From Bacteroidota bacterium (lineage in GTDB: Bacteria; Bacteroidota; JABWAT01), in the NCBI GenBank assembly GCA_023151185.1, contig JAKLJL010000006.1:1-64000 (forward strand): a DNA stretch of 64,000 nucleotides, read 5' to 3'. Shown here piece after piece: positions 33,494 through 50,125 of the stretch. The translations under genes and the position numbers were made by a program. The stretch's first letter is position 1. Every line of letters begins with the position of its first letter. The notes under the pieces were generated by a model that was given only the letters and a program-made list of their open reading frames with translations, was not told where the DNA came from and did no database searches.

Positions 33494-34321
33494 ATGAGTA
33501 ATCTGGTCACGCGGATCCTGACGGCGATTGTTTTGGGTCCGCTTGTTCTTGCGGGAATTTTTCTCGGGGGATATTTTTTGTTCGCAATTGTTATCCTCAT
33601 CAGCACAATTGCAACGTTTGAATTTTTCACCATGGGAAAGGCAAAATCCATCCATCCGAACTTTCTGGCCGGACTTATTTTCTCGGTCTTATACCCGGCC
33701 AGCTTTTTCTTCGGGGAATTTCCGCTTACTCCGTTTGAACTTGCCGGGTTTTCTGTTTTTCTGGTAGCCCTTTCAGAGTTGTTCAGAAATAAACCCAATG
33801 CGATGCTGAATTCGGGATTTACGGTATTTGCATCAGTCTATATTGGGATCGGAATCGGCAGTTTTCTGGGATTAAGGCACCTGATTGCCGGTCCGGTTTT
33901 TGACAGTCCTCTGGCCTGGCTTTGTCTTTCCGTAATTGCCAGTATCTGGATGTGCGACTCCTTTGCCTATTTTGGCGGTCGCCTCCTGGGTAAACGGAAA
34001 CTGTTTGAACGGGTCAGTCCAAATAAAACCTGGGAAGGTGCCATTTCGGGCCTGATTGCCTCTGTACTGACGAGTTGGGTAATGGGGGAGTACACACCGC
34101 TTTCCGGTTTAAATCTCACCACTGCCGAACTTCTTATTCTTGGGCTGATTCCGGGAATATTCGGCCAGGCAGGGGATCTGGTTGAAAGTCTTTTCAAGCG
34201 GGATTCCGGGGTGAAGGATTCTTCTCATCTCATTCCCGGTCATGGCGGAATGTTTGACCGGTTCGACAGTTTGCTGGTTACGGCACCGGTCGTTTTCGCC
34301 TATATCAACACCATTATCTGA
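33494..34321 (+). CDS. cdsA: Phosphatidate cytidylyltransferase
   Basis: Makes CDP-diacylglycerol from CTP and phosphatidic acid at the inner membrane, the branch point of phospholipid synthesis. The 275-residue polytopic protein has the family signature at the C-terminus (SPNKTWEGAISGL, and KRDSGVKDSSHLIPGHGGMFDR with the metal-binding Asp residues). The start follows the preceding stop directly. CheW begins 13 bases later, so chemosensory and lipid genes may share an mRNA. Confidence 0.94.
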   Translation: MSNLVTRILTAIVLGPLVLAGIFLGGYFLFAIVILISTIATFEFFTMGKAKSIHPNFLAGLIFSVLYPASFFFGEFPLTPFELAGFSVFLVALSELFRNKPNAMLNSGFTVFASVYIGIGIGSFLGLRHLIAGPVFDSPLAWLCLSVIASIWMCDSFAYFGGRLLGKRKLFERVSPNKTWEGAISGLIASVLTSWVMGEYTPLSGLNLTTAELLILGLIPGIFGQAGDLVESLFKRDSGVKDSSHLIPGHGGMFDRFDSLLVTAPVVFAYINTII

Positions 34322-34334
34322 TACCGGGGAGATT

Positions 34335-34859
34335 ATGTCTAAGCAAACCAATCTGGATGATCTGATTACCCGACTCGAGGAAAAAGAGAAGGAAGCCTCG
34401 ATAATTTATGCCGATGAGGAAACCGAACAGGTTGTCATTTTTGAATTGGATGGGGCACTTTTTGCTTTTCCGGGGCGGCATGTCATTGAAATTGTTCCTT
34501 TTGAATCCCTCACCACCATCCCGGGATTACCTCCGTATTTTTCCGGACTGATTACCCTCAGAGGTACTGTTGAGGCAGTTATCAATCTGAAATTTCTTTT
34601 GGGGCTTCCTGCCGAATCGGCTGTTTACGGATCCCGGATTTTATTTCTGAAATATGACGAGCAGATACTTGGTGGACTTGCAGATGTGGTGTTTGATGTT
34701 GTTTCAATCCCCAAAAGCGGAATTCATCCGCCTCTGGAAACTCTGGATGAAAAAAAGGCGGAGTATATTATCGGAGAATTTGACTATCGGGATAAACAGG
34801 TGGTTCTGATCAGCGGCGCCAAACTTTTTGCCAAAATCACAGAGTTGAGCAAAGTGTGA
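34335..34859 (+). CDS. cheW: CheW-like coupling protein 1
   Basis: 174 residues from the ATG at 34335, behind a GGGGA site; an upstream in-frame start inside cdsA is rejected. A 30-residue acidic/lysine-rich helix precedes the CheW domain (QVVIFELDGALFAFPGRHVIEI, FSGLITLRGTVEAVINLKFLLG). CheW links receptors to CheA. First gene of the chemosensory run. Confidence 0.9.
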   Translation: MSKQTNLDDLITRLEEKEKEASIIYADEETEQVVIFELDGALFAFPGRHVIEIVPFESLTTIPGLPPYFSGLITLRGTVEAVINLKFLLGLPAESAVYGSRILFLKYDEQILGGLADVVFDVVSIPKSGIHPPLETLDEKKAEYIIGEFDYRDKQVVLISGAKLFAKITELSKV

Positions 34860-34860
34860 A

Positions 34861-35319
34861 ATGAGTAACTCTTTCCTGGTTTTTAAGGTTTACTCGGGGG
34901 TTTACGCCATCAGTACGGGAGATATTTACCGGATTGAACGGTTTGACCGGGAAAATGTTGAATTCAATGGAGAGGTTCCCTCTTTTTACCGGGTTGGAGA
35001 TTATGTTATTACGCTTGACTGGCTGACAGAAGCCGCCGTCAGCAAAGAAAATCTATTTGACCCGGACCGGCTGATCCTTTACCGGACTGCTTCAAAAATC
35101 AGGGGAATTCCGGTTACAGAACTGCAAAAAGTAGAGACTTTGGATGAAGTAAGTTCCTATTCGCTTCTGCCCAGGTTTTTCAGGCGGGCAAAGGTCCTGA
35201 GCTGGATCAACCTGTTTCTAACCTCAGGAGAACGGATTGTTCCTGTATTAAACCTGGAAAAGCTGCCGGAACATGATTTCCGGACCGCAGATGCTGCACG
35301 GAAGAAGGAGAGTGTATGA
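34861..35319 (+). CDS. Divergent CheW-like protein 2
   Basis: 152 residues with CheW-like length and pattern (SFLVFKVYSGVYAISTGDIYRIERF, then RGIPVTEL and RIVPVLNLEKL) but weak agreement with the family consensus in the middle. It begins one base after the first CheW gene and overlaps the MCP1 start by four bases, so it is read as a second coupling protein. It could also be a specialised adaptor to a certain receptor. Confidence 0.65.
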   Translation: MSNSFLVFKVYSGVYAISTGDIYRIERFDRENVEFNGEVPSFYRVGDYVITLDWLTEAAVSKENLFDPDRLILYRTASKIRGIPVTELQKVETLDEVSSYSLLPRFFRRAKVLSWINLFLTSGERIVPVLNLEKLPEHDFRTADAARKKESV

Positions 35320-37304
35320 TCCGGACCAAAAGTATACAAACAACCCTGCTGGCCACCATTTTATTCCTGACCGTTATTCTGATTGCGGCGGTTTCCTTTT
35401 TTGCACACCGGGCAGCAACCCAGATCATCAATGACGAGGCCGATAAACTTTATTCCCAGAAGGTACAGAGTTTTTCTTTACAGACCGATACTTACCTTGA
35501 GGGATACAGGAAACTGCTCGAACATCTTGCCGAAAATAAACTGACCCGTACTATTCTGGCTTCCCATGATATGACCGATTACCAGAACCGCCGGTCCGAC
35601 CCGGACTGGGTTGCGTTAAGAACACAGGTCATGATTCCGTTCGTTCAAAAAAACCGGGAATCCATCCATCTTTTATATGCCGGCAGCGAAAAGCATGGTG
35701 AAAACTACCGTCATAATGATACAACCTACAAAACCAAATATGATGCACGGCTACGGGTTTGGTACAGGACGGCTCTCAAAAAGGATGGCATTGTTTTTAC
35801 CAATTACCCGTCAGCAAACAGGAAACGAATTGATGTCACGATTTCAACACCGGTAAAGGCGGATGACGGCCGGTTGCTGGGTGTGGCAGGAATGGACCTG
35901 ATCACTGAAAAAATTTTTCAAAGTCTTAGCCAGGGATTTCTGGATTCGGCCTCCTTTGCTTTGGTTCTGGATTCAGCCGGTGCCATTTTGTTTCACCCTG
36001 AGCAGCGGATTCTTTTAAAAAACATATCGGACTCTTCATTGGGAATGGGGGGATCTTTTGTGGAAATGGGACAGACTCTGATCAGAAACAAATCAGGGAA
36101 GGTTTCTTACACAGATTCCCTGGGAACAGAGTGGATTACTTACTTTTCACCGGTGGGCACTACAGGCTGGATTGTTGGGATCGGGGTCCGGATGGATGTA
36201 CTTCATGCACCGATACAAAGCCTTGTCAGAAACATTCTGATTATTGATTTCATTGTTCTTGCACTGGTTCTGGTATTTTCGTGGTTTATCACCCGGCGTC
36301 TGACCTCCTCACTTGGATTAATTGTTGAAAACCTGAGGGTCATTGCGACAGGAGAAACCAGTCATCACCAGAAACTAACCATCAATACCCATGATGAATT
36401 TGGTGATCTGGCTCATTGGTTCAATACATTTGCAGATCGCTATGAGGCTATGTTTGAGGAACTCAGAAAAAAGGGAAGTGAAATATCGGCTCTTTCTGCA
36501 CAACTGAATCAATCGATGTCGCAATTAAATGCTGCTACCGTCGAGCAATCTGCCGCTGTTGTTGAAACGACCAGCACAATGGAAGAAATGTTCCATGCCA
36601 GCACCCGGATTTCTGAAAGTTCTGATTCTACTCTTGAGGCTGCAAACCGAAATCAGGATACGGCCCGTGAAGGGGTTGAACTCATCCGGACCTTCGTGAA
36701 GAAAATGAGTGAAATTGACCGGCTGAATCAGGAAAAAACTCATGACATTCTTCAAATGAAGAAGAAGGTGACCCGGATTAATGAAGTTATGGGGATGATC
36801 AGAGGTATTAATGAACAAACCAAGCTGATCAGTTTTAATGCCTCTCTCGAAGCTTCAGGAGCCGGTGAAGCCGGAAAGCGGTTCACTGTAGTCGCAAATG
36901 AAATCAGACGGCTGGCCGATACAGTTCAGGAATCCATGGAAGAAATCAGGGTGATGACTGATGAAGTCCAAAGCCAGACTCAGTTGCTGATCAAAGGGGC
37001 AGAAGAAAGTAACCGTATGGTGGCATCAGGGGTTCAGTCATCGAGAGATGTTGAACAGCACTTCAATTCAATCTTTACCGAAGCACAATCGGTAACTTCA
37101 AACTCACGGCAAATTTCCCAGGCAGCCAACCAGCAAAAAGTAGCTTCTGAGCAAATTGTGAAAACATTGCATGATATTTCACAGGCGATCAACCATGTCG
37201 TCGGTATGACAACCGAAGTCGGACAAATATCCAGAGAACTGGAATTGATTTCTTCTGTATTTTCCAATTTTGGCGCCGAAGATAAAGCAAGGAACCAGGC
37301 ATGA
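35316..37304 (+). CDS. Methyl-accepting chemotaxis protein 1 (dCache sensor)
   Basis: 662 residues. TM1 (about 10-30), a periplasmic dCache-type domain (about 35-300, with ARLRVWYRTALKKDGIVFT and LLGVAGMDLITEKIF), TM2 (about 304-326), HAMP, then the cytoplasmic signalling domain. The hairpin tip is INEQTKLISFNASLEASGAGE, with Gly where canonical receptors have Arg (EAARAGE). Double-Cache sensors often bind amino acids or amines; the ligand is unknown. ATGA overlaps on both sides. Confidence 0.92.
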   Translation: MIRTKSIQTTLLATILFLTVILIAAVSFFAHRAATQIINDEADKLYSQKVQSFSLQTDTYLEGYRKLLEHLAENKLTRTILASHDMTDYQNRRSDPDWVALRTQVMIPFVQKNRESIHLLYAGSEKHGENYRHNDTTYKTKYDARLRVWYRTALKKDGIVFTNYPSANRKRIDVTISTPVKADDGRLLGVAGMDLITEKIFQSLSQGFLDSASFALVLDSAGAILFHPEQRILLKNISDSSLGMGGSFVEMGQTLIRNKSGKVSYTDSLGTEWITYFSPVGTTGWIVGIGVRMDVLHAPIQSLVRNILIIDFIVLALVLVFSWFITRRLTSSLGLIVENLRVIATGETSHHQKLTINTHDEFGDLAHWFNTFADRYEAMFEELRKKGSEISALSAQLNQSMSQLNAATVEQSAAVVETTSTMEEMFHASTRISESSDSTLEAANRNQDTAREGVELIRTFVKKMSEIDRLNQEKTHDILQMKKKVTRINEVMGMIRGINEQTKLISFNASLEASGAGEAGKRFTVVANEIRRLADTVQESMEEIRVMTDEVQSQTQLLIKGAEESNRMVASGVQSSRDVEQHFNSIFTEAQSVTSNSRQISQAANQQKVASEQIVKTLHDISQAINHVVGMTTEVGQISRELELISSVFSNFGAEDKARNQA

Positions 37305-39058
37305 CCCTCAGGACCAGAATTCTTTTTTCTTTTACAGGACTTACGGCTGTCATTCTGTTGACAGTTTCAATTCTGGTCAATCAGGCCGCCACCACCCTTA
37401 CGCATGATTCCCTGGATAAATACAGGGCTTTGAAAACAGAGCTGGCAGGAACCGTAGCAGAACGGGAACTCGCTTTCCGATTGGAGCAGGTCAGGCTGAA
37501 TGGGATGCCTGGAGCAGAATCAGAACAGGCCGGAATTCCAATTTTTCAGGTTTTTTCTCCCGAAAAAGCACTTCCGGTTGGTTCAGACGGATGGCTGTTT
37601 GATTCAGTTTCTGGCAAATGGCTGTATCCTTTTTACCCTCAAAAAGACGGCCCCGGTGCATCATTTCTTGCCTTTAACCCGGAGAACCTGATCCGGTTCT
37701 GCGAACCGTTTCTGACTGATACGTCTCTGAAACTTCAGATTCTCGGGCCGGGGAATCTGGTTTTAGGTGCCCGGGATACACTTTTTTCCCGGTTCCTGGG
37801 CCGGGATCTGCAAACCCCGGATTCATCTCAGGTTGATTTCGGGGCCTATATTCACCATACCCGCGGACGGGTTCAGAACCTGGATGACTGGAATGACCGG
37901 TCTCTTTTTATCTTTCCGCTGGACGGAACTCCTTTCCGGATTCTGGTGTCGGTTTCCAGTTCAGAAGAAACTGAAACTGCAGAGAATCTGTTTTATCTGA
38001 TCGCCCTTATTAACCTGGTCCTGTTTCTCCTTTTAACGCTTTCAGGATTTTATGTCATCCGGATTGTAACTGGCCCGGTGAAGGCTGCAACCTTGTTTAT
38101 CCGGGATATTACAACAGGCAGATCCAAATTATCCGACCTCAGCAGCACAGGAAAAGATGAAGAATTTAAATTACTGGACCAGTCGGTCAGCGACCTGTAT
38201 CTGTCACTTTCCTCTTCGGTTGATCTGATCAAGAAAAACGGGATTGAACTGAGCATGATGACAGAGGAAATCAGAACGAACCTGAATACCTTTTCTGAGT
38301 CTGCAGTTTCCCTTTCTGCTGCCGTAACGCAAACCACCAGTGCCATGGAGGAAATGACAGCCTCGAGCCGAAATATTTCATCCACGTCATCCGAAGTGGT
38401 TCTGATTGCAAAAAATTCGCAAAGCCGGGCTCTCGACGGGCTCGACGGATTCAGGCAGTTTGTGAAAAAAATGGAAGACATCCGCCAGAAAAATGAACTC
38501 AGGTCCCAGGATATCGGTACTCTGGCAAAAAAAGCTGCACGGATTACCGAAATCATGACCATTATCAATCATATCAATGAGCAGACAAAACTTATAGCCT
38601 TTAATGCAGCACTCGAGGCGTCGGGTGCTGGCGAAGCAGGAAAACGGTTCTCGGTCGTTGCAAATGAAATCAGGCGCCTTGCCGACAACGTTCAGGAATC
38701 GACTGAGGAAATAAAGTTGATGATCAGCGAAATTCAGCATTCTGCTGTTGAATTGATGAAGGGCACTTCAGAGGCAAGTGGTTCTATTCAGTCAGGGATC
38801 GTGCATATCAACGGAATGGTTGGGACAATGGAGACCTTCGTTAACGAAGCTTCGAATACAACTGAAGCTGCCCAGCAGATCAGTTATTCAACCCAGCAGC
38901 AATTAAGTGCGGCCGAAGAAATCGTTACAACTCTTCATGATGTATCGGTTACTGCAACCCGGTTTGCCGAAATCAGCAACTCATTGGCCAGGACTGCCGA
39001 AAGGTTAAATGCAATGTCGGTTCAGTTGGTCGAAATGACAATCGTAAACGTTCAATAA
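37301..39058 (+). CDS. Methyl-accepting chemotaxis protein 2
   Basis: 585 residues. TM1 about 7-27, a ~200-residue periplasmic part of unclear fold, TM2 about 228-250 (LINLVLFLLLTLSGFYVI), HAMP-like linker, then an MCP signalling domain with tip NEQTKLIAFNAALEASGAGE. Nearly the same cytoplasmic half as MCP1 but a different sensor, so it probably reads a different signal into the same CheA. Four-base overlap with MCP1. Confidence 0.9.
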   Translation: MTLRTRILFSFTGLTAVILLTVSILVNQAATTLTHDSLDKYRALKTELAGTVAERELAFRLEQVRLNGMPGAESEQAGIPIFQVFSPEKALPVGSDGWLFDSVSGKWLYPFYPQKDGPGASFLAFNPENLIRFCEPFLTDTSLKLQILGPGNLVLGARDTLFSRFLGRDLQTPDSSQVDFGAYIHHTRGRVQNLDDWNDRSLFIFPLDGTPFRILVSVSSSEETETAENLFYLIALINLVLFLLLTLSGFYVIRIVTGPVKAATLFIRDITTGRSKLSDLSSTGKDEEFKLLDQSVSDLYLSLSSSVDLIKKNGIELSMMTEEIRTNLNTFSESAVSLSAAVTQTTSAMEEMTASSRNISSTSSEVVLIAKNSQSRALDGLDGFRQFVKKMEDIRQKNELRSQDIGTLAKKAARITEIMTIINHINEQTKLIAFNAALEASGAGEAGKRFSVVANEIRRLADNVQESTEEIKLMISEIQHSAVELMKGTSEASGSIQSGIVHINGMVGTMETFVNEASNTTEAAQQISYSTQQQLSAAEEIVTTLHDVSVTATRFAEISNSLARTAERLNAMSVQLVEMTIVNVQ

Positions 39059-39072
39059 CTTTAAATTAAACC

Positions 39073-40113
39073 ATGACTTCAAAACGAACCCGGGTTCTGA
39101 TTGTAGATGATTCGCCAACCGTGCGGGATATCTTCAGAGCCATTTTTGAATCAGATCCGGATGTTGACGTTATCGGCGAAGCTTCAAATGGAGAAGAAGC
39201 CATTGCTTTTGTCGGGAAAACCAGACCCGATATTATCACAATGGACGTCTTCATGCCAAAAATGAACGGCCCTGATGCAATTCAGGCAATAATGGCAACA
39301 AAAGCAACCCCGATTCTGGTTGTCACAACTGCGAAAGATGCCACCACTGCCTTCCAGTGTCTGAACAAAGGGGCACTTGAAGTTATTGAAAAACCGGATT
39401 TTGCCTACATCCAGAATGAACAGAAAAGAAAATTTCTGATCAGCAAACTGAAATCCCTTTCTGCTGTACCGGTGGTAACACATCTGGCCGGTAAATCCAA
39501 AATCAAAAAGGAATTTGTAAAACCTGATTCGGGAAACCGGCGGATTCTCGCCATTTGCTCCAGTACCGGCGGACCCAAAGCCCTTTCAGTCCTGCTGAGT
39601 CAGCTTCCGGCTGATTTCCCCTGTCCGGTCGTGATCACCCAGCATATGTATGAGGGATTTATTGCAGGCTTGGTCGAATGGCTTCAGACTACAACTCCGT
39701 TAAAAGTGAAGGTAGCTGAACAGGGTGAAGTTCTGGCACCGGCAACAGTTTATGTAGCCCCAACCGGGAAACACCTTGAAATTACCCTGGCCGAATCCGT
39801 TAGGCTGACCGAAGATCCGCTGGTTGAAGGACACCGTCCGTCCGGCGAGAAATTATTTTCAACCGTGGCCAATGTGTACGGTTCCCGTGCGGTTGGGGTT
39901 ATCCTGACCGGCATGGGGGGTGACGGAAGCCATTCACTCGGGATGATCAAAAAAGCCGGCGGGCTGACCATTGCCCAGGATGAGAAATCCTGTGTGGTTT
40001 TTGGTATGCCGCGGGAAGCCATCCTGAAGGGAAATGCGGTCCAGATTCTGACACTCCAGGATATTGCGCCTGCCGTTCTTCGGCACCTGGCCCATCAGAA
40101 AGCAGGTGTATAA
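39073..40113 (+). CDS. cheB: Chemotaxis response regulator / receptor methylesterase CheB
   Basis: 346 residues: receiver domain with phospho-acceptor Asp58 (ITMDVFMPKMNG), linker, and methylesterase domain with the catalytic Ser164 (CSSTGGPKA), His191 (QHMYEGF) and Asp284 (MGGDG). It removes methyl groups from MCPs in opposition to CheR. Start at the ATG after a 14-base gap; length is normal. Its presence with CheR indicates an adapting system. Confidence 0.95.
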   Translation: MTSKRTRVLIVDDSPTVRDIFRAIFESDPDVDVIGEASNGEEAIAFVGKTRPDIITMDVFMPKMNGPDAIQAIMATKATPILVVTTAKDATTAFQCLNKGALEVIEKPDFAYIQNEQKRKFLISKLKSLSAVPVVTHLAGKSKIKKEFVKPDSGNRRILAICSSTGGPKALSVLLSQLPADFPCPVVITQHMYEGFIAGLVEWLQTTTPLKVKVAEQGEVLAPATVYVAPTGKHLEITLAESVRLTEDPLVEGHRPSGEKLFSTVANVYGSRAVGVILTGMGGDGSHSLGMIKKAGGLTIAQDEKSCVVFGMPREAILKGNAVQILTLQDIAPAVLRHLAHQKAGV

Positions 40114-40116
40114 ATC

Positions 40117-41667
40117 ATGCTGACGGCTGTTCAGATCCAGAAATTTGCAACCCATATTACCGACCGGTATGGCATTGTGGTTTCCCGTGAACAGCAGGGA
40201 TCTCTTCATAAGTACATCGATGACCGGATGGCTTATCTCGGATATCAGTATTTTGATGACTATCTGTCCTGGCTCATGTTTAAGGCAAATGAAACTGAGT
40301 GGGAGCAATATATCAGTCTGATCACCAACAATGAAACCTATTTTTTCAGGGAACCGAATCATTTCCGTGTTTTGGATACCCAGATTCTGGACGAACTTCA
40401 CCGTCAGGTTCCACCTGACAGGAAAATCAGGATCTGGAGCTGTGGTTGCTCCTCGGGTGAGGAAGCTTATTCAATTGCTACTTTGATTAAAGACAAATTT
40501 GGTCTGCCGGCTTTGATGAACCGGTTTCAGATCCTTGCCTCTGATCTGGATCAGAAAATTCTGCAGGCTGCTCGGGTTGCTGAATACGGGCGCAATTCCT
40601 TCCGGGTAAAGGAGCACGCCTATATACTTTCCAACTTTGAAGAGTTACCAAGCGGGCGGATGAGACTGAACCAAGAATTGAGCTCCCGGGTCGAGTTTTT
40701 CAGGTACAACGTTTGTGAAGATACTGATAAAATTGCACAGCTTGAGGAACCGGTCGATCTGATTTTTTTCAGAAATGTTTCGATTTACTTTACATCAGAA
40801 ACACTCCGAAAAGTTCATAACCGGCTTCAGGATCGTCTTACACGGAACGGTTACATGTTTGTTGCAAGCTGCGAAACCATGCTTCACGATCTGGGACAGC
40901 TAAAACTTATTGATCTTGGCGGCGCATTTCTTTTTAGAAAATCGGCAGGTTTTCAGGTTCAGGAGCCAACCAGGCAATCCCAGAAATCAGGGTCCGCAAG
41001 TGCCGGGCAGCCCCAACCAGGCAAGGAAAGTTATGAGACCCTTCTTGCCAGAATCCGGGATCTGATTGACCACCGGAAGCCGGGAAAACATACAACTGAA
41101 ATAAGAGCAGTGACCGAAGTTATTGATACGGTGAACCAGGCCATCAGTCAGAATCAGGAACAAATTTCTGGCCTGGCACTGCTTCGCCTTCAGGAAGATT
41201 TATTTGAAGAGGCTGTCAGACTTCTTTCTGCAAGAAAGGATGCCTCATTTACTGACCTTTCAGTTCTGGCGTATTCTCTTATCTCGCTTGCCAGATTCAC
41301 TGAGGCTGAAAAACCGATAACAGAAATGATCCGGCGCGAGGAATTTAATCCGGTTGGGTACCTGCTTGAAGGTCTTAATTATAAATACCAGGGAAAAACG
41401 GATGCCGCAATTGTTGCCTTCAGGCGGTCAGTTTATCTTGACCTGAACTTTCCGACACCGCATTTTCATCTGGGAAATATTTACCAGCAGACCGGCAAAT
41501 GGACTGTAGCCAAAAGTGAATATGAGCTGACTGTTAAACTGATTGGGAAAAAACCAGCTCAACTGGTTGCCTTTAACAAGCCAGATGTTTCTCTGGACTA
41601 CATTTTATATGCCTGTCAGAAAATACTGAAAAATTACTCACAAGAAGTGAATCAAAAGGTGAACTGA
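40117..41667 (+). CDS. cheR: CheR methyltransferase with C-terminal TPR
   Basis: 516 residues. N-terminal CheR domain (about 1-270: SAM-binding IRIWSCGCSSGEEAYSIA, FRNVSIYFTSETLRKVHNRL) methylates MCP glutamates. The C-terminal ~200 residues hold TPR-like repeats (LLEGLNYKYQGKTDAAIVAFRRSVYLDLNFP and PHFHLGNIYQQTGKWTVAKSEYELTV), as in CheR proteins of alternative (non-flagellar) systems. Stop TGA overlaps the start of the next gene by one base (TGATG). Confidence 0.92.
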   Translation: MLTAVQIQKFATHITDRYGIVVSREQQGSLHKYIDDRMAYLGYQYFDDYLSWLMFKANETEWEQYISLITNNETYFFREPNHFRVLDTQILDELHRQVPPDRKIRIWSCGCSSGEEAYSIATLIKDKFGLPALMNRFQILASDLDQKILQAARVAEYGRNSFRVKEHAYILSNFEELPSGRMRLNQELSSRVEFFRYNVCEDTDKIAQLEEPVDLIFFRNVSIYFTSETLRKVHNRLQDRLTRNGYMFVASCETMLHDLGQLKLIDLGGAFLFRKSAGFQVQEPTRQSQKSGSASAGQPQPGKESYETLLARIRDLIDHRKPGKHTTEIRAVTEVIDTVNQAISQNQEQISGLALLRLQEDLFEEAVRLLSARKDASFTDLSVLAYSLISLARFTEAEKPITEMIRREEFNPVGYLLEGLNYKYQGKTDAAIVAFRRSVYLDLNFPTPHFHLGNIYQQTGKWTVAKSEYELTVKLIGKKPAQLVAFNKPDVSLDYILYACQKILKNYSQEVNQKVN

Positions 41668-42044
41668 TGCAATTGAACCAGGCCATGTTCATTGATAAAT
41701 TCTGCAATGAGGCAACCCAGGTCAAAGAGAAAATTGAAACTGCTTTGGCCGCATTAAATGAAAACCCGGAAAATACCGATGAAATTCTGGTGATCAAACG
41801 GGCCAGTCACAGCCTTAAAGGTCTGAGTCTTATGCTGAAATTTACTGCAGTCGGGCAGTTAATGGCAGCATCTGAACAAACCAGTGAAAAATATGCAAGT
41901 GCAGGAAAGGGTGCCGACCCCGATTATCTTTATCTTGAAATGGAAGTATTGACTGCCCTGGATGAATCTATTGACAAAATCAGGGCAGGTTCAGGAAATG
42001 ACCTGAATTGGGATGAACTGACTGAAAAGCTGAAACAACTGTGA
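41667..42044 (+). CDS. Stand-alone histidine phosphotransfer (Hpt) protein
   Basis: 125 residues forming one Hpt-type helical bundle; the acceptor histidine is His48 in RASHSLKGLSLMLKF. Its layout and the position of the histidine match the first Hpt domain of the adjoining CheA (also His48, VHSLNGVANMLKF), so it looks like a duplicate. It may serve as a phosphorelay intermediate between CheA and the receiver proteins. Confidence 0.85.
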   Translation: MQLNQAMFIDKFCNEATQVKEKIETALAALNENPENTDEILVIKRASHSLKGLSLMLKFTAVGQLMAASEQTSEKYASAGKGADPDYLYLEMEVLTALDESIDKIRAGSGNDLNWDELTEKLKQL

Positions 42045-42054
42045 GGCCGATTTC

Positions 42055-45000
42055 ATGGCTGGAATAGACACGTCCAAATTTGCCCTGCGGTTTTGTGCTG
42101 AAAGCCGGGAAAAAGTTTCCGGAATTCGTGCACAACTGCAAACAGGCCCGCTTCCTGACTATCCGGATGCACTCGATCAGATCAGAAAGCTGGTGCATTC
42201 GCTGAATGGTGTTGCCAATATGCTCAAATTCAGCACAATCGGGCAAATGGCTTCAGAACTGGAAGGCATTCTGAAGGCAATGGTAGAGAAAAAAACCGAA
42301 ACCAAAGCCTGGGCAAACTCTCTGGTTGATAAATTTGCAGACATTGTGTCTTCTGAAATTGACCGGATCTCTGCAGATCCGAAAGCTGAGCAGTATTCGC
42401 ACCCGTTTCTTGAAACTCTGCGGAAAATCAGTTCAGGAGAAGAGTATTCTGGTGAAGCACAGGCTCCCCGGACTGAAGACCAGAGATTCAGCAAGGAACG
42501 GTTCCTTAAAAAATTCATTCAGGAGGCAGAAGGGTACATTCAGGACCTCAAAAAAATTCTGGACTCGGTGAACTCAACACAGGATCTGGAGCAAAAGCAA
42601 ACCGAACTAAAAAACATCGTTCATGCTTTTAAAGGATCTTCCAGATTGCTGGGTTTTAATGACCTGCATCAGAATCTCGAAAAACTGGAGGAGTTTTTCA
42701 TTGAAAATATCAATAGCGGACGGGTACTCCCTTCAGGGTTCAGGGCAGAATTCAGGGAAGTTGTTGACAACCTGAACGCCTCTCTGATGCGGATTGCCGG
42801 CGGAGAAATTGAATCTGTATCCAACCCCGATCTTACTGCCAGTGTCAGCCGGGTAATTTCCCGTGAACCGGCAGCACCTTCAAAACCGGTTGTTCCGGAA
42901 GGACGGGTGAGTCCGTTTATGAAACCTGCTGAACCCCAGCAGGAAAAACCCCGGCAGCAGGCAGACATTTCACAGGCGCCGGCCAAGAAATTTGACAGGT
43001 CCATTTTTATAGCCAAGTTTGTTGATGAATCCCTTGAGAACACTGACCTGCTTTCTGACGTCCTGGTAAATTTTGAAAAGGCTCTTGAAGATCTGAATCT
43101 TGCCAAAGAGTGTATGCGCCTTGCCCACGTTCTGAAAGGCTCTGCCCGGATGATCGGGTTTAAGTATCAGGGCGGACTCCTTCACAAGATGGAAGATCTT
43201 CTCAACGAATTTGTAAACGGGGCAATCAAACCAACCGATTTTCATATTGAACTTCTTCTGGTTACAACCGATCACCTCAAGGAAAACCTGCAGACTATTA
43301 AACGGGAGCAGACCGAATTACCAGCCCATGCCGGAATTTCTGAATCGTTGGACAATGCCATTGCACAAAAGCCCTTTGCCATCCCCAAAATTGAAAAACC
43401 GGATAGTCAGGCTGTTCAGCTTTCTGATGAAACTGCCGCCAAACCGGCAGAAACAGGACCAAAACCAGTTTCTCAGCCAGAAAAAAGAGACTACCCGGAT
43501 CGCCGTGACCGCCAGGAAGACGGTGGTGACGGGATCAACGTCAGGAAAATGGGAGATACTATCCGGGTTAATACGGGTAAGCTGGATGAAACCATTAAAC
43601 TGGTTGGCGAACTGTTGATCAACCGGCAGCGGTCCCAGATCCGCCTGAATGAGCTACAGCATCTGAGACGGTTGCTGAAGGGATTTGTTTACCAGATGAC
43701 CTCCCATGTTCAGGGGTTGGAAGATGAACAGTCGCGGGATCTGTTGCGGCAGTCTGAACGGATTCTCTCCATGCTTGAAGGGCAGGCTCACCGGCAACGG
43801 GAAGATATGGCTTTTCAGGATTTGATTATCAATGAACTTCAGGGTAATACCATCAAAATGAGGATGGAGCCTCTGAGTGTTATTTTTAACGCCTTCCCCA
43901 GAGCCATCCGCGATATCAGCCGTAGTCTGAACAAACAGGTCGAACTCGTCATTCAGGGCGATGAGACTGAGCTTGACCGGAAAATGATTGAAAAGCTGAC
44001 CGATCCGCTAATTCATCTGGTCCGGAATGCTATCGATCACGGAATAGAATCGCCGGAAGAACGGCAGGTCCTGGGCAAGCCCATGAAGGGCCTTCTCAGA
44101 ATCAGGGCCCTTACCGAGGGCAGTAATATTGTTCTGATGCTTCAGGATGACGGACGGGGAATTGACCTCGAAAAGATCAAGGAAAAGGCACTGGCGAAAA
44201 AACTGTTCGAAACGCCGGAAGAACTTGATGCCCTGAATGAAGTTGAAGTGATGAAACTCATCTTCCTTCCCAATTTCTCGACAGCGAAAATCATTACAGA
44301 CCTTTCTGGCCGGGGTGTCGGTCTGGATATTGTCCGGAAAAACATCGAAGACCTGAAAGGATTTATTTCGGTGGATTCCATCCCCGGAAAAGGAACCACA
44401 TTCACTATCAAGCTTCCGTTAACCCTGACAACCCTGCGGTCTCTGATCTGCCAGGCCGGTGGTCAGAAATGGTCCATCCCGATCAATTCGATCAAACGGA
44501 CTCTGGTCATCAGGAAGTCAGAGGTGATCAGTGTCGTCGACCGGGATGCGATCCGTCTGGATAATCAGATCATTCCGCTTGTCCGGCTGTCAAAAACCCT
44601 CGGGTTGAACGATCCTGACGGATTTCCGGAAAAACTGATGGTCATGGTCGGCTATTTCGGTAAGGAACAGATTGCTTTTATTGTCGATGATATCCAGGAA
44701 GAGACAGAAATTGTCATCAAACCGATTCCTGCCCTGATCAAAAAAATCAGAAACATCAGTTCGGTAACTGTTTCACTGAACGGTGAAATCATCCCGATCC
44801 TGTTCATGCCCGAACTGATTGCCAGTGCCAAACTGGTACAGGAAGGCCTCAAAGAACCGGTAATTATCAGCCGGGGTAAGGAAAATACCCGGACTGTTCT
44901 GGTTGTGGATGATTCGCTGAACACCCGTGAGATTGAGAAAACCATCCTCGAAGCCTACGGATATAAAGTCGAAACTGCCCGGGATGGTTTGGATGGTTAT

Positions 45001-45252
45001 GAAAAGGCAATGGAAGGTACTTACGACATCATCGTGAGTGATCTTGAAATGCCGCGCCTGAACGGATTCGGATTTATTGAAAAGTTGCGGCAGCAGGAAA
45101 AATATAAGCATATTCCGGTCATTATTGTGACCAGCCGAGAAAATGAAAATGATAAACGGAGGGGAATTGAAGTTGGGGCCAACGCCTACATCATCAAGGG
45201 ATCCTTCGATCAGACCAGTCTGATAGATACAATTGAAAGTCTTTTAGCCTAA
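42055..45252 (+). CDS. cheA: Hybrid CheA kinase with three Hpt domains and a receiver
   Basis: 1065 residues. In order: Hpt1 (His48, VHSLNG), Hpt2 (His190, VHAFKGSSRLLGF), a Pro/Glu-rich linker, Hpt3 (His358, AHVLKGSARMIGF), linker, dimerisation region, kinase ATPase domain (HLVRNAIDHGIESPEER, DDGRGIDLEKI, GRGVGLDIVRKNI), CheW-like P5 domain, and a C-terminal receiver (VLVVDDSLNTRE, Asp996 in SDLEMPRLNG). This is the core kinase. Multi-Hpt hybrid CheA are typical of twitching or other non-flagellar systems. Confidence 0.94.
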   Translation: MAGIDTSKFALRFCAESREKVSGIRAQLQTGPLPDYPDALDQIRKLVHSLNGVANMLKFSTIGQMASELEGILKAMVEKKTETKAWANSLVDKFADIVSSEIDRISADPKAEQYSHPFLETLRKISSGEEYSGEAQAPRTEDQRFSKERFLKKFIQEAEGYIQDLKKILDSVNSTQDLEQKQTELKNIVHAFKGSSRLLGFNDLHQNLEKLEEFFIENINSGRVLPSGFRAEFREVVDNLNASLMRIAGGEIESVSNPDLTASVSRVISREPAAPSKPVVPEGRVSPFMKPAEPQQEKPRQQADISQAPAKKFDRSIFIAKFVDESLENTDLLSDVLVNFEKALEDLNLAKECMRLAHVLKGSARMIGFKYQGGLLHKMEDLLNEFVNGAIKPTDFHIELLLVTTDHLKENLQTIKREQTELPAHAGISESLDNAIAQKPFAIPKIEKPDSQAVQLSDETAAKPAETGPKPVSQPEKRDYPDRRDRQEDGGDGINVRKMGDTIRVNTGKLDETIKLVGELLINRQRSQIRLNELQHLRRLLKGFVYQMTSHVQGLEDEQSRDLLRQSERILSMLEGQAHRQREDMAFQDLIINELQGNTIKMRMEPLSVIFNAFPRAIRDISRSLNKQVELVIQGDETELDRKMIEKLTDPLIHLVRNAIDHGIESPEERQVLGKPMKGLLRIRALTEGSNIVLMLQDDGRGIDLEKIKEKALAKKLFETPEELDALNEVEVMKLIFLPNFSTAKIITDLSGRGVGLDIVRKNIEDLKGFISVDSIPGKGTTFTIKLPLTLTTLRSLICQAGGQKWSIPINSIKRTLVIRKSEVISVVDRDAIRLDNQIIPLVRLSKTLGLNDPDGFPEKLMVMVGYFGKEQIAFIVDDIQEETEIVIKPIPALIKKIRNISSVTVSLNGEIIPILFMPELIASAKLVQEGLKEPVIISRGKENTRTVLVVDDSLNTREIEKTILEAYGYKVETARDGLDGYEKAMEGTYDIIVSDLEMPRLNGFGFIEKLRQQEKYKHIPVIIVTSRENENDKRRGIEVGANAYIIKGSFDQTSLIDTIESLLA

Positions 45253-45264
45253 CGGAGGTTTACG

Positions 45265-46434
45265 GTGACCTTACGAAAATTTTTAATCTGGGCGCACAAA
45301 TACGGTGCCTTCAACATTTCGGCTATTTATTATTTTTCTGCCTTTTTTCTGTTTACGGCAATTTCTGTCGTTACAGCATTTCTCATTTTCGGTATCGGTG
45401 TCATCAGCATCCTGTTTACTTTTGGCGTTTCATTTTTTACCGCCTGGGCGATGACTGTTTTTTACAGAAAAATCACAGGTTTGGTTCACACAGTCTTTTC
45501 GGAATATCAGCGGGATGAAACAACCCGGATCCAGATCTCAGGGACCAATGAAATCGGGCAGGTGGTGGCTCTGGTTAACGATATGCTTGAAAGAAATTCC
45601 GGCCTGAAGAGCCAGCTTGTTCTTGCAAACCGGAAAATCAATAACCTGATCGAAGCCCTCAGCGGGCAGCTCAGAGAAAATGCAGAGGTTTCTGCTACCC
45701 AAAGCAGTTCTATTGCCGAAACAACCGCAACGATAAAGGAACTGGCGACATCAGCAGAAAAAATTGTTCAGGAAACCTCGACTGTTGTTGGTCTGGCAGA
45801 AGCAACCCAGAACTCGGCACAAAAGGGGACTCTGGCAATTGCGAATATGCTGGAGCGGATGAGTGAAATCCAGAATGAAAATCAACGCCGGATACATGAA
45901 ATAGTCATTCTTGGCCGGAAGGCTCAGGAAATTGAAAAGGTTATGGATATAATCAATGACATAGCCTCAAACACAAAAATCATTGCATTCAACGCCGGAA
46001 TTGAAGCTGCTTCTTCGGGGGAGGAAGGGAAAAGATTTGGAACAGTTGCCTCCGAAATCAGGAAATTAGCCAATACGGTGGCGAATTCGACCAATGAAAT
46101 ACGGGATAAAATCAAGGAAATCCAGAAAACGACCAATGAACTGGTTATTGTATCCGAAGAAGAAACCAAAAAAATTCAAAGCGGGGTTGATACGGCCCAG
46201 ACAATGGTTAAAGAACTGACCGAAATTCTGGATAAAGCAGACCGGACACTTGATTGGGTGAAGCAGATTTCACTTGCAACCCAGCAGCAGTTAACTGCAA
46301 GTGAACAGGTGGCCCTTGTTCTTCATGATATTTCTGACGGGGTGAAACGGTTTTCTCATGCAGTTAATCAGTCAAAAGAAACGTCTGATCAGCTTAGGGT
46401 GTTATCGGATGATCTGAAGGGAATGATCCGGTAA
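45265..46434 (+). CDS. MCP-like protein 3 lacking a periplasmic sensor (GTG start)
   Basis: 389 residues, GTG start behind CGGAGG. Two adjoining hydrophobic segments (about 21-41 and 45-66) with no space for a periplasmic domain, then a short linker and a full MCP signalling domain (NTKIIAFNAGIEAASSGEEGKRFG). It must sense an internal or membrane signal or act as a structural receptor. Sits between CheA and the receiver-GAF genes. Confidence 0.85.
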   Translation: MTLRKFLIWAHKYGAFNISAIYYFSAFFLFTAISVVTAFLIFGIGVISILFTFGVSFFTAWAMTVFYRKITGLVHTVFSEYQRDETTRIQISGTNEIGQVVALVNDMLERNSGLKSQLVLANRKINNLIEALSGQLRENAEVSATQSSSIAETTATIKELATSAEKIVQETSTVVGLAEATQNSAQKGTLAIANMLERMSEIQNENQRRIHEIVILGRKAQEIEKVMDIINDIASNTKIIAFNAGIEAASSGEEGKRFGTVASEIRKLANTVANSTNEIRDKIKEIQKTTNELVIVSEEETKKIQSGVDTAQTMVKELTEILDKADRTLDWVKQISLATQQQLTASEQVALVLHDISDGVKRFSHAVNQSKETSDQLRVLSDDLKGMIR

Positions 46435-46479: not shown

Positions 46480-47592
46480 ATGCTGAAACCCATTAAGCCA
46501 TCCAAAAAACAGGCCCCGGTCAGAGAACGGCCGTTGGTTCTTATTGCGGATGACAGCCCGACCGTTCTGGATATCCTGAAATTCATTCTGGAAACAAACG
46601 GGATGGATACCCTTCTGGCTACCAATGGTGTTGAAGCCGTTCAGGTTATGTACCGCGATCTGCCAGATCTGGTGATTCTGGATCTTGAAATGCCGAAAAT
46701 GAGCGGGTATCAGGTTTGCAGACTTTTAAAATCGGATCCGACTGTTTCGTTTGTTCCGATTATTATTCTGACGTCGAAATCGTATAAACAGAATAAGTTC
46801 TGGGGCCTTTATTCAGGTGCTGATGACTACCTGACCAAGGACTTTGAAATTGACCAGTTGGTCAGCCGGGTTAACTTTCATTACAATAACCGGGGTAAGC
46901 TGGTAGAGATTAAACCGGTTCAGTCAAAGACGATCAAAGAAGAAGAGATTATCGAGAATGTGAATGAGGCGCTTGATCAGAAGCTATTTGAAACTACGAT
47001 AACTTTTGAAATTGCTCAGGTGGCTCTTTCTGCAGGAACACTGGAAGAAAAAATCGGTAAGGTTCTGAACCTGATGAACCGGGTGTGTGATTTTACAGTG
47101 GCCAGTATCTTTGTCGTTGAAATGGGCCAGGGCCGGTTGTTTCTTGAAAACCCCGGAATGGCGAGTGAATCCTATATTTTCAGTCACGTAGAAGCGGTCA
47201 TTTTGGAATCGCAGAACCACGACATGAAATTTGATACCCAAAAGGTCATGATCAACCAGTGGGAGACCGGAAAAGACAGGGGAACCCAGTACAATAACAT
47301 CCAATCGCAGGTTTCCTTTCCGCTTAAAATAAGAGGAGTGACACAGGGTCTGGTCACTTTCACTCACTTTTCATCGGGTATGTTTCCTGATGTTGTGTTT
47401 CACCTGCTGAAACGGGCAGCAGACCAAATGGCTCTACTTGTTGACGAAGCAATTTTATTTAATGAGTACAGTAAACTGAGAAGTGATCTTTTAACCCATG
47501 CTACGAAAGTCTTTTCCGAGGTGATGGCGAACGGACGGGAAGTAGAGAAGCTGCTGAATAAAAAATTAAACTCCATCTCACCCTGGATTTAA
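46480..47592 (+). CDS. Response regulator with GAF-like C-terminal domain
   Basis: 370 residues. N-terminal receiver (VLIADDSPTVLDILKF; phospho-acceptor in VILDLEMPKMSGYQVC; Lys in LTSKSYK), a short linker, and a GAF-like region (about 165-345). No DNA-binding, GGDEF or cyclase domain. It has the same opening layout as the next gene, so they are tandem paralogues. It is one of two candidate outputs of the CheA phosphorelay; no lone CheY is present. Confidence 0.8.
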   Translation: MLKPIKPSKKQAPVRERPLVLIADDSPTVLDILKFILETNGMDTLLATNGVEAVQVMYRDLPDLVILDLEMPKMSGYQVCRLLKSDPTVSFVPIIILTSKSYKQNKFWGLYSGADDYLTKDFEIDQLVSRVNFHYNNRGKLVEIKPVQSKTIKEEEIIENVNEALDQKLFETTITFEIAQVALSAGTLEEKIGKVLNLMNRVCDFTVASIFVVEMGQGRLFLENPGMASESYIFSHVEAVILESQNHDMKFDTQKVMINQWETGKDRGTQYNNIQSQVSFPLKIRGVTQGLVTFTHFSSGMFPDVVFHLLKRAADQMALLVDEAILFNEYSKLRSDLLTHATKVFSEVMANGREVEKLLNKKLNSISPWI

Positions 47593-47603
47593 GGAATTCT
47601 GTT

Positions 47604-49775
47604 ATGGCAAGAGAAATACCCAAAATATTGATTGCGGATGACAGTCCGACCATTGTGGATATCATGAAATTCATGCTTGAGGCAAGTGGTTATGAAGTTG
47701 TGACTGCTACCAACGGACTCGAAGCCATTATTGCGGCTTTCAAGGAAGATCCGGATCTGGTCCTTCTGGATGTGGAAATGCCGAAAATGAACGGCTACCA
47801 GGTTTGCCGTTACCTGAAAGAAGACCGGCACCTCAAGCAAACTCCCATCATTATTTTAACCTCTCACGCCCAGAAGAAAATGCGGTTCCTTGGCGTCTAT
47901 ACCGGGGCTGATGAATATATGATCAAAGATGATGATCATGAGCAGCTTCTGAACCGGATCGAATATTACATTAACCGTAAGAAATCGGGAGCCGGACATT
48001 TACGGGAGCCCCGTTCCCTTCAGGTCTCCGATGTTTCGGTGATGGAAACAGTCAATTCCATCCTCGATAAAAAACTCATTGAGTCGACCATCATCAATCA
48101 GGTTGGCCGGCTTGCAGCCAATCTGGACCGCTTCGACCTGGTAATCAATTCCATTTTCGGACTGATTGAAAAAATGGAAGAATTTGATTTTTCCGCAATC
48201 CTGGTCAATGAAGTGGGTGGTGCTCAGCTTTACATCCAGACCCAGCGGTCCATCCCGCCAGAACTGGTCGAAAAATTCCAGGCGAAAGTACTCCAGAGTG
48301 CCCTTCACAATGAAGTGATCATGGATTCTGCAAAGGTGACCACCAAATTAATCCCCAGGACAGAAAAAGGTGAATTTAATCTGGGCGATAAACGGGCCAC
48401 TGCTGCAAAGGAAGGAAATCTGAAATTTCAGGATAACGTTCTCAGAAGCCGTCAGGAACCGGTGGGCATTCTGGCAATCGGAAATTTCTCTGAAGAACCT
48501 CTGCATAACGACATTGTTGAAACAGTATCCATCCTGTCGAATCATGTCGCCATGCTGCTCGATAACTGGCTTATCTGGAAACGGTTCAATGATGTCAACC
48601 TGACCCTGAACGTACGGCTTCTTGAACTGAATGTCGAAATCCTTCATGAACTTCAGCTTCTTGCTGCCAACCTGACCAAATGCCGGAATCTGGAGGAAAT
48701 AACCCAGACTGTTATCCGCCAGGTCCCCAGAATCATCAGAAGCAATAAAATCAGTCTGATCATCCGCCGGAAATCGGGCAACGATTTTAAAATTGAATCT
48801 TTTGGAAAATGGGGCGAAGATTCCAACAGTCTCATTTTTGATATTATTGTGGAATGGCTGGTTAATGAGCAGCTCAATAAAATCACCAATCAATCCATTA
48901 TCAATGATCTTGGCAAAGTCAGGTTTTTCAAGGAACACAATCTGGATAAGAACCTCTGTTCCAACATCCTGACGGTACCTTTATTTATTGGTGATGAAAA
49001 AACAGGATTGATTACTCTGTTTGACCGGATGGAAACCGGTCAGTTCAGCCAGCAGGATCTTGAAATTCTGAAATTTATTTCCGGCTTAATTGCCCTGAGC
49101 CTGAAGGGAACCCTTGATCAGGATTATCAGGCGCCGGACAGCATGATGACCAACGTTTACAAACGGTTTATGCCCGATGAAATGGCCACAACAGTCATTC
49201 TGAATCCGGAACTTCTGGATATGGAAGGTTCGGTCATGCACTCAACCGTTCTGTTCATTACAGTTACCGGCGGAACTTCTCTGCTTGAACATCCGGATAC
49301 CAAACGGGTGGTTCAGTTCTACAATGTATTCCAGAATATGATGACCACACAATCCTTCAATTTTCTTGGCATTGTGGAAAAATACAAGGCAACCGGGATG
49401 AAATGCCTCTTCGGGATTCCATTTTCACAGAAGGACGACGCCGAGCGGGCGATTCAGTGTGCCATTCAGATGACTCAGGATTTTTCGCGCCTGAAAGAAC
49501 AGTTTTCTGATCTTCCTGTTGAAGATACCGGCCTCCGCATTGTTATCCATTCGGGAGATGTGAGTTTTGCCTACATGGGCAATGAGCATCTGAGTGACTT
49601 TGTCTCATTCGGTAAGGAAATTCATGCGGGATGCCAGCTTTCAGACCTGATTCAGACTGAAGGGGTTTATATCACCGAAAGAACCATTATCGAAATTGAA
49701 CATCCGTATGGTCTGAATCCGGTAGATCTGACCACCGATGCTGGTTTTCAGGTTTATCAGCTTGCAGAATCCTGA
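47604..49775 (+). CDS. Response regulator with GAF domains and degenerate class III nucleotide cyclase domain
   Basis: 723 residues: receiver (IADDSPTIVDIMKF; VLLDVEMPKMNGYQVC), two GAF-like regions (about 150-335 and 355-510), and a C-terminal fold of class III cyclases (about 540-720). The catalytic residues are replaced: metal Asp 1 is Thr553 (FITVTGG for FADIRGF), Asp 2 is Met599 (ATGMKCLFGIP for IGDAVMAVFG), and the VNxAxR site is IHAGCQ (His674, Gln678). Thus no cyclase activity is expected; it may bind a nucleotide or proteins. Likely output of the chemosensory system. Ends in overlap with the convergent ytxJ gene. Confidence 0.8.
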   Translation: MAREIPKILIADDSPTIVDIMKFMLEASGYEVVTATNGLEAIIAAFKEDPDLVLLDVEMPKMNGYQVCRYLKEDRHLKQTPIIILTSHAQKKMRFLGVYTGADEYMIKDDDHEQLLNRIEYYINRKKSGAGHLREPRSLQVSDVSVMETVNSILDKKLIESTIINQVGRLAANLDRFDLVINSIFGLIEKMEEFDFSAILVNEVGGAQLYIQTQRSIPPELVEKFQAKVLQSALHNEVIMDSAKVTTKLIPRTEKGEFNLGDKRATAAKEGNLKFQDNVLRSRQEPVGILAIGNFSEEPLHNDIVETVSILSNHVAMLLDNWLIWKRFNDVNLTLNVRLLELNVEILHELQLLAANLTKCRNLEEITQTVIRQVPRIIRSNKISLIIRRKSGNDFKIESFGKWGEDSNSLIFDIIVEWLVNEQLNKITNQSIINDLGKVRFFKEHNLDKNLCSNILTVPLFIGDEKTGLITLFDRMETGQFSQQDLEILKFISGLIALSLKGTLDQDYQAPDSMMTNVYKRFMPDEMATTVILNPELLDMEGSVMHSTVLFITVTGGTSLLEHPDTKRVVQFYNVFQNMMTTQSFNFLGIVEKYKATGMKCLFGIPFSQKDDAERAIQCAIQMTQDFSRLKEQFSDLPVEDTGLRIVIHSGDVSFAYMGNEHLSDFVSFGKEIHAGCQLSDLIQTEGVYITERTIIEIEHPYGLNPVDLTTDAGFQVYQLAES

Positions 49776-50125
49776 CTGCTAAATTCGGATACTCTTTTCT
49801 GAAGGTTTGCTGCCGTTATCGCATGATGAGAGCAGTGCCAGACCGGTTCCCCGTTTTTAAACAGGATAACCTGTGGTGATTCATGACGGATTCCGGTTTC
49901 TGCAGCAATTTTTTGACTCAGCGGTCTCGAATCCAGTACATCGACCAGTAATACTTCCGGAAAGCCCTGGGTTTTTTCTGCAAGCTGAATTTCTTCCTCT
50001 GCCATGGCGCTGATTCCGCAACGGGGTGAGTGTTTAAACAGCATCAGGATCCCTCCTGCCCGAACTTCCGCCTCGAACAATTCCCAATTAACAACCGGTC
50101 TCATCTGTTCTGCCTTCCTGCTCAT
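49757..50125 (-). CDS. ytxJ: YtxJ-like monothiol bacilliredoxin-type protein
   Basis: 122-residue thioredoxin-fold protein of the DUF2847/YtxJ family, with the single active-site cysteine in KHSPRCGIS and a following EVLLVDVLDSRPLSQKIA and PQVILFKNGEPVW pattern. YtxJ proteins are associated with bacillithiol redox chemistry, suggesting bacillithiol use in this organism. Minus strand; its end overlaps the cyclase-fold gene by 19 bases, tail to tail. Confidence 0.82.
   Translation of the reverse strand: MSRKAEQMRPVVNWELFEAEVRAGGILMLFKHSPRCGISAMAEEEIQLAEKTQGFPEVLLVDVLDSRPLSQKIAAETGIRHESPQVILFKNGEPVWHCSHHAITAANLQKRVSEFSSQDSAS

Follow-up and report, generated by a model that had tools for sequence, protein, structure and literature searches.

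What does a response regulator do with an output domain that keeps the fold of a nucleotide cyclase when the catalytic residues of that fold are gone? The question arises at the end of a chemosensory operon in the 64,000-nucleotide stretch of a Bacteroidota bacterium contig analyzed here (the window; JAKLJL010000006.1, positions 1 to 64,000). A sequence-only reading had described the product of the last gene as a receiver-GAF protein with a dead class III cyclase domain that might bind a nucleotide or a partner and so act as a switch. We compared this gene in four genomes, all those of the class in the genome collection used, that of the window (G000) together with G001, G002, and G003, and searched 395 genomes of the phylum for relatives.

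Domain organization and chemosensory context

The open reading frame at 47604..49775 (+) starts with ATG and encodes 723 aa in the order receiver (REC), GAF, GAF, helical linker, and class III cyclase homology domain (CHD). It is the last gene of the following operon, whose other members were assigned with Pfam:

34242..35319, +, CheW at 34242-34859 and a weakly matching second CheW at 34861-35319
35316..39058, +, two MCPs (35316-37304, dCache-HAMP; 37301-39058)
39073..40113, +, CheB
40117..41667, +, CheR with TPR repeats
41667..42044, +, free-standing Hpt protein
42055..45252, +, CheA carrying three Hpt domains plus a receiver at its C terminus, the probable phosphodonor
45265..46434, +, HAMP-MCP signaling protein
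46480..47592, +, REC-GAF paralog lacking a cyclase domain, separated from the next gene by 11 bases
47604..49775, +, REC-GAF-GAF-linker-pseudo-CHD response regulator, 723 aa, with orthologs (L009, L010, and L011) at 70-82% identity

The order CheW-CheW-MCP-MCP-CheB-CheR-Hpt-CheA-MCP-(REC-GAF)-(REC-GAF-GAF-CHD) is the same in all four genomes, so that the gene, as expected for a CheA-linked response regulator, stands with a full set of chemosensory genes whose order is conserved. The gene is present with an intact frame in each of the four, which rules out sequencing error or a pseudogene as the cause of its odd features. Its end overlaps by 19 bases an oppositely oriented gene for a BrxC-like bacilliredoxin (49757-50125, -). 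The REC-GAF paralog just upstream is 82-87% conserved, above the pseudo-cyclase protein, and has no recognizable output domain.

Within the 723-aa protein we delimited the following segments:

47625..47963, +, receiver domain, aa 8-120 (Pfam Response_reg, 1.8e-26)
48081..48584, +, weak GAF-like domain 1, aa about 160-327, common to the upstream REC-GAF paralog
48684..49103, +, GAF domain 2, aa 361-500 (Pfam GAF_2, 2.9e-8)
49131..49238, +, helical linker or cyclase-transducer region, aa 510-545, with block 520-534 conserved at 11/15 positions (AF2 model and ortholog alignment)
49239..49769, +, degenerate class III CHD, aa 546-722 (phmmer, alignments, AF2, and Foldseek)

Because D12, D13, D56, T86, and K108 (the acidic pair, phospho-Asp, Thr, and Lys) are invariant in all four orthologs, the receiver is probably phosphorylatable. 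The sequence-only reading correctly recognized the receiver and a GAF domain but left out the second, weaker GAF-like segment at about 160-327; residues 2-335 match the REC-GAF paralog at 34% identity, and that paralog has a Pfam GAF_2 match at its residues 194-321 (E of 0.02).

Together, the CheA and the Hpt protein of the operon exceed a standard chemotaxis kinase in their number of phosphotransfer modules. A further chemosensory locus in the window's genome (G000:C11:355951-358828) combines a CheW domain within a frame of 1795 aa with more CheW genes, and matching CheW-domain proteins were found in the other three genomes. Because these other CheW-domain proteins exist, one of them in the 1795-aa frame, the genome probably has more chemosensory systems than this operon, and for the same reason it is from operon position that we infer the role of the CheA at 42055-45252 as phosphodonor. 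A genome search found no flagellin. It identified SprA, a component of type 9 secretion/gliding, and one full T2SSE-type ATPase per genome. With five intact class III cyclases and 11 cNMP-binding matches encoded, cyclic-nucleotide signaling probably exists in this organism.

The C-terminal domain has a class III cyclase fold

The Pfam Guanylate_cyc model matches aa 547-694 at 20.0 bits, just below its cutoff of 21.9 (E of 5e-4). In phmmer searches against the PDB, the CHD matches 6fht at an E value of 7e-18 and 2w01 (Cya2) at 2e-12. An AF2 model of the domain reached a pLDDT of 91.5 and a pTM of 0.88, and the top 50 Foldseek hits obtained with it are all class III cyclases (best E of 4e-15). 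The alignment given to AF2 consisted mostly of active cyclases, and this helps in predicting the fold; the phmmer sequence matches do not depend on it. Since phmmer, AF2, and Foldseek all agree, the kinship is not a chance one, and the assignment of this domain to the class III cyclase fold family, as earlier proposed, is secure at the level of sequence matching and structure prediction. A full-length AF2 model from a four-row alignment (pLDDT of 39.5) was set aside in favor of the domain model.

Catalytic residues are missing from the fold

Alignment to active cyclases placed the catalytic positions as follows, with residues given in the order window/G001/G002/G003 (one alignment, which set the GAF domain of the REC-GAF paralog against the CHD, was excluded):

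49260..49262, +, Thr553, metal site 1 (Me1; Asp in active cyclases), T/G/G/D
49380..49382, +, Lys593, base-recognizing Lys, kept in all four orthologs
49392..49394, +, Thr597, metal site 2 (Me2; Asp in active cyclases), T/Y/Y/H
49623..49625, +, His674, transition-state Asn position, H/N/N/T
49635..49637, +, Gln678, transition-state Arg position, Q/Q/Q/L

Active enzymes have two metal-binding Asp residues, occupied here by T553 and T597, and a transition-state Arg, usually with an Asn, replaced here by Q678 and H674. The Gly that precedes the Me2 Asp and the C-terminal Lys-Gly are missing as well, leaving K593 as the sole survivor of the catalytic set in the window protein. The base-choosing Thr position is V667/I/I/A, so the substrate-specifying combination of Lys with Asp or Thr is absent too. 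The structure prediction and the alignments together thus return the class III fold with its catalytic set missing, much as first read from the sequence: Thr553, His674, and Gln678 were named correctly, and the second metal Asp is indeed lost, although the residue in its place is not Met599 but Thr597, two residues away, where "EKYKATG" aligns with "DKYIGDA."

These losses do not carry equal weight. The active cyclase Rv1900c has His at the transition-state Asn position (PMC4886424), and His for Asn alone is therefore compatible with activity and no proof of its absence. The metal aspartates of class III cyclases, by comparison, have been termed indispensable (PMC4886424). Activity is not expected, judging from the alignments, of a CHD without both metal Asp residues and the Arg. 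Functional aspartates placed elsewhere would have undone the earlier claim, but neither metal-binding loop has an Asp or Glu that all four orthologs share.

The losses are partly mosaic. All four orthologs lack the Me2 Asp, its preceding Gly, the Arg, and the C-terminal Lys-Gly, while G003 retains the Me1 Asp and G001 and G002 retain the Asn. Because Me2, Arg, and Lys-Gly are missing throughout, the simplest history would have the CHD inactivated before the four members diverged, followed by drift at Me1 and Asn. The fold positions G542, N574, G589, G604, P606, G651, G659, and G670 are retained in the orthologs.

The domain evolves rapidly under purifying selection

Toward the C terminus, identity to G003 declines from 94% in the receiver to 80% in GAF1, 75% in GAF2, and 46-47% in the CHD. 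Between G000 and G003, the dN of the CHD is 0.49, against 0.09-0.28 in the intact cyclases of those genomes, and overall its rate of change is some 2 to 7 times that of their intact CHDs. A dN/dS of about 0.056 for G001-G002, the only usable pair because the ratio is saturated for most others, indicates that the CHD is under purifying selection and not simply decaying.

The best-kept C-terminal parts are the transducer block 520-534 in the linker, which no other 15-residue stretch of the region matches in conservation, the central block 580-616, and segment 697-706. The nucleotide pocket is kept less well: the loop for triphosphate and metal differs even between orthologs, as do the positions that contact base and ribose, and 1 of 12 pocket columns is invariant, compared with 68 of 177 for the whole CHD (hypergeometric P of about 0.02, which is modest evidence, as we chose the pocket columns ourselves). 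Since the pocket drifts while fold positions stay, the pattern points to a structural role, dimerization, or the binding of a partner more than to conserved binding of a nucleotide.

A second degenerate family in the same lineage

The protein is the lowest-scoring full-length CHD in each genome of the class, and the full REC-GAF-GAF-CHD architecture had no further matches among the 395 genomes of the phylum. A search of genome contigs with the single protein returned two close MAGs and one receiver-only match, and viral contigs gave receiver matches only, with no CHD match. Both metal Asp residues, the Asn, and the Arg are present in most Bacteroidota CHDs (61 of 71 rows); among the 71 checked, the only equally degenerate domains belong to a second REC-CHD family from the same lineage. 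In an apparently membrane-bound family with a C-terminal CHD (L109, L110, L119, and L123; frames of 431-444 aa), the transition-state Asn is Ile and the base-recognizing Lys is Gln; because both metal Asp residues and the Arg are kept, we did not score such domains as dead.

The second family consists of a 354-aa protein found in G000 and G003 (L087:9337-10401 and L088:9209-10273) and not found in G001, G002, or the rest of the 395 phylum genomes searched. At Me1, Me2, Asn, and Arg it has H or R, D, T, and Q, and its CHD is strongly conserved (90%; dN of 0.066). The gene lies in a cluster (L087:5314-10401, corresponding to G000:C11 at about 392.3-397.4 kb, and L088:5175-10273) that encodes CheY, CheX, a kinase, and the REC-degenerate CHD protein. 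The kinase ahead of it is not a second CheA: Pfam identifies this 1060-aa protein as a fusion of an ammonium transporter (Amt) with PAS, Hpt, and HATPase domains. Possibly, to judge from its domains, the cluster is an ammonium-sensing phosphorelay with a second pseudo-cyclase.

Like the window protein, the second family (L006 and L102) joins a receiver to a degenerate CHD and is encoded beside an Hpt/HATPase kinase; unlike it, it keeps the Me2 Asp, has no GAF domain, has a partly degenerate receiver, and shares only 24% identity. A tree joins the two CHD families at 64/77, a weak value flagged as a meeting of long branches, and when the families are built apart their neighbors differ.

A proposed pseudo-cyclase output and its alternatives

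We hypothesize that 47604-49775 encodes a response regulator with a nonenzymatic pseudo-cyclase output that has been kept since a loss of catalysis predating the four members, a reading that we hold to be probable, if by no means assured, from the predicted fold, the domain order, the catalytic losses, the conserved operon, and the purifying selection. In this scheme, the CheA of the same operon would phosphorylate D56, and the resulting change would reach the CHD by way of both GAF domains and the conserved transducer helix, the same route as in active GAF-CHD cyclases. The readout would be the dimer state or an exposed surface of the CHD, engaging a putative protein partner instead of producing cAMP or cGMP.

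The rapid change of the CHD bears on a simpler view, that the protein functions through its receiver and GAF domains, with the CHD a leftover that is tolerated as long as it folds. It is the least conserved part of the protein (46-47% identity to G003 against 94% for the receiver, dN of 0.49 against 0.04), and its accelerated evolution also fits weakening constraint. We nonetheless consider a mere vestige unlikely: the CHD is never truncated in the four genomes, its dN/dS is well below 1, and blocks 520-534, 580-616, and 697-706 are conserved. Quite unlikely, in our estimate, is a dominant-negative subunit through which CheA would control cAMP or cGMP by having the pseudo-CHD pair with and inactivate an intact cyclase. 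Class III CHDs act as dimers in which one subunit supplies the Asp residues of each active site and the second subunit supplies Asn/Arg. A heterodimer containing the pseudo-CHD would therefore lack any complete site; the conserved central block 589-616 and the genome's intact cyclases and cNMP-binding matches would suit such an arrangement. The operon itself contains no cyclase gene, however, and several of the intact cyclases resemble membrane proteins with their own sensor regions.

The invariance of Lys593 in all four orthologs is what speaks for a switch that has retained binding of ATP, GTP, or a cyclic nucleotide, but with the metal ligands, the phosphate loop (553-558), base/ribose positions 667 and 674, and the Arg all variable and a single pocket column invariant, we regard it as rather improbable. 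Of the two options in the sequence-only reading, nucleotide or partner, the second therefore fits better, and a partner or dimerization output is what we infer; the core of that reading, a fold kept without catalysis in a CheA-operon response regulator, is well supported in all four genomes. Least credible of all is an active cyclase with relocated metal ligands. Migrated catalytic residues are known in some pseudoenzymes (PMC10211241), but here the lack of a conserved acidic residue in either metal-binding loop coincides with loss of the Arg and the Lys-Gly loop.

Relation to known systems and implications

Nonenzymatic GGDEF and EAL domains are well-known signaling effectors. PopA of Caulobacter has the order REC-REC-degenerate GGDEF, with the degenerate domain serving as effector (PMC10333796), and the window protein resembles it, by sequence prediction, as a response regulator with a degenerate, nonenzymatic cyclase-type output. 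A degenerate cyclase as response regulator output is thus already a known idea, and the present case places it in the class III fold. The claim that such an output has no standard name does not hold, the term being pseudoenzyme and PopA-like degenerate GGDEF outputs the direct analog. The two proteins differ in that GGDEF is an unrelated enzyme class and that PopA keeps its I-site and binds c-di-GMP (PMC10333796); the window protein has no GGDEF match in Pfam, its domain being class III, and no conserved ligand site was found in its CHD.

Among class III cyclases, Synechocystis Cya2 (2w01), Pseudomonas aeruginosa CyaB (3r5g), and Spirulina CyaC (1wc0) share with the window CHD the fold, the length, the structural glycines, and Lys593, and likewise place signal domains ahead of a C-terminal CHD; in contrast to them, the window CHD lacks both metal Asp residues, the Arg, and the Lys-Gly, and catalysis is not expected. 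The DUF2652 cyclase-like proteins are also from Bacteroidota, with class III kinship and deviating residues, but they keep both metal Asp residues, are predicted guanylate cyclases, and are described as single-domain proteins rather than response regulators (PMC4886424). Searches of an open-access library returned no description of a class III pseudo-cyclase output in a bacterial response regulator, a result that does not by itself establish absence; the one paper returned on an inactive adenylate cyclase domain concerned a two-hybrid reporter.

More tentatively, and with less confidence than we place in the single protein, the two degenerate families may mean that a class-level lineage turned class III CHDs into nonenzymatic outputs of Hpt kinases in two systems, a chemosensory operon and an ammonium-transporter kinase. 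If true, the degenerate GGDEF effectors would have a class III counterpart, one whose output, protein binding, has yet to be described. In a chemosensory bacterium that lacks flagellin, a pseudo-cyclase both conserved and linked to phosphorylation would be evidence that the class III fold, too, lends itself to reuse as a switch. It would also warn against annotating every class III cyclase-type domain as a cyclase.
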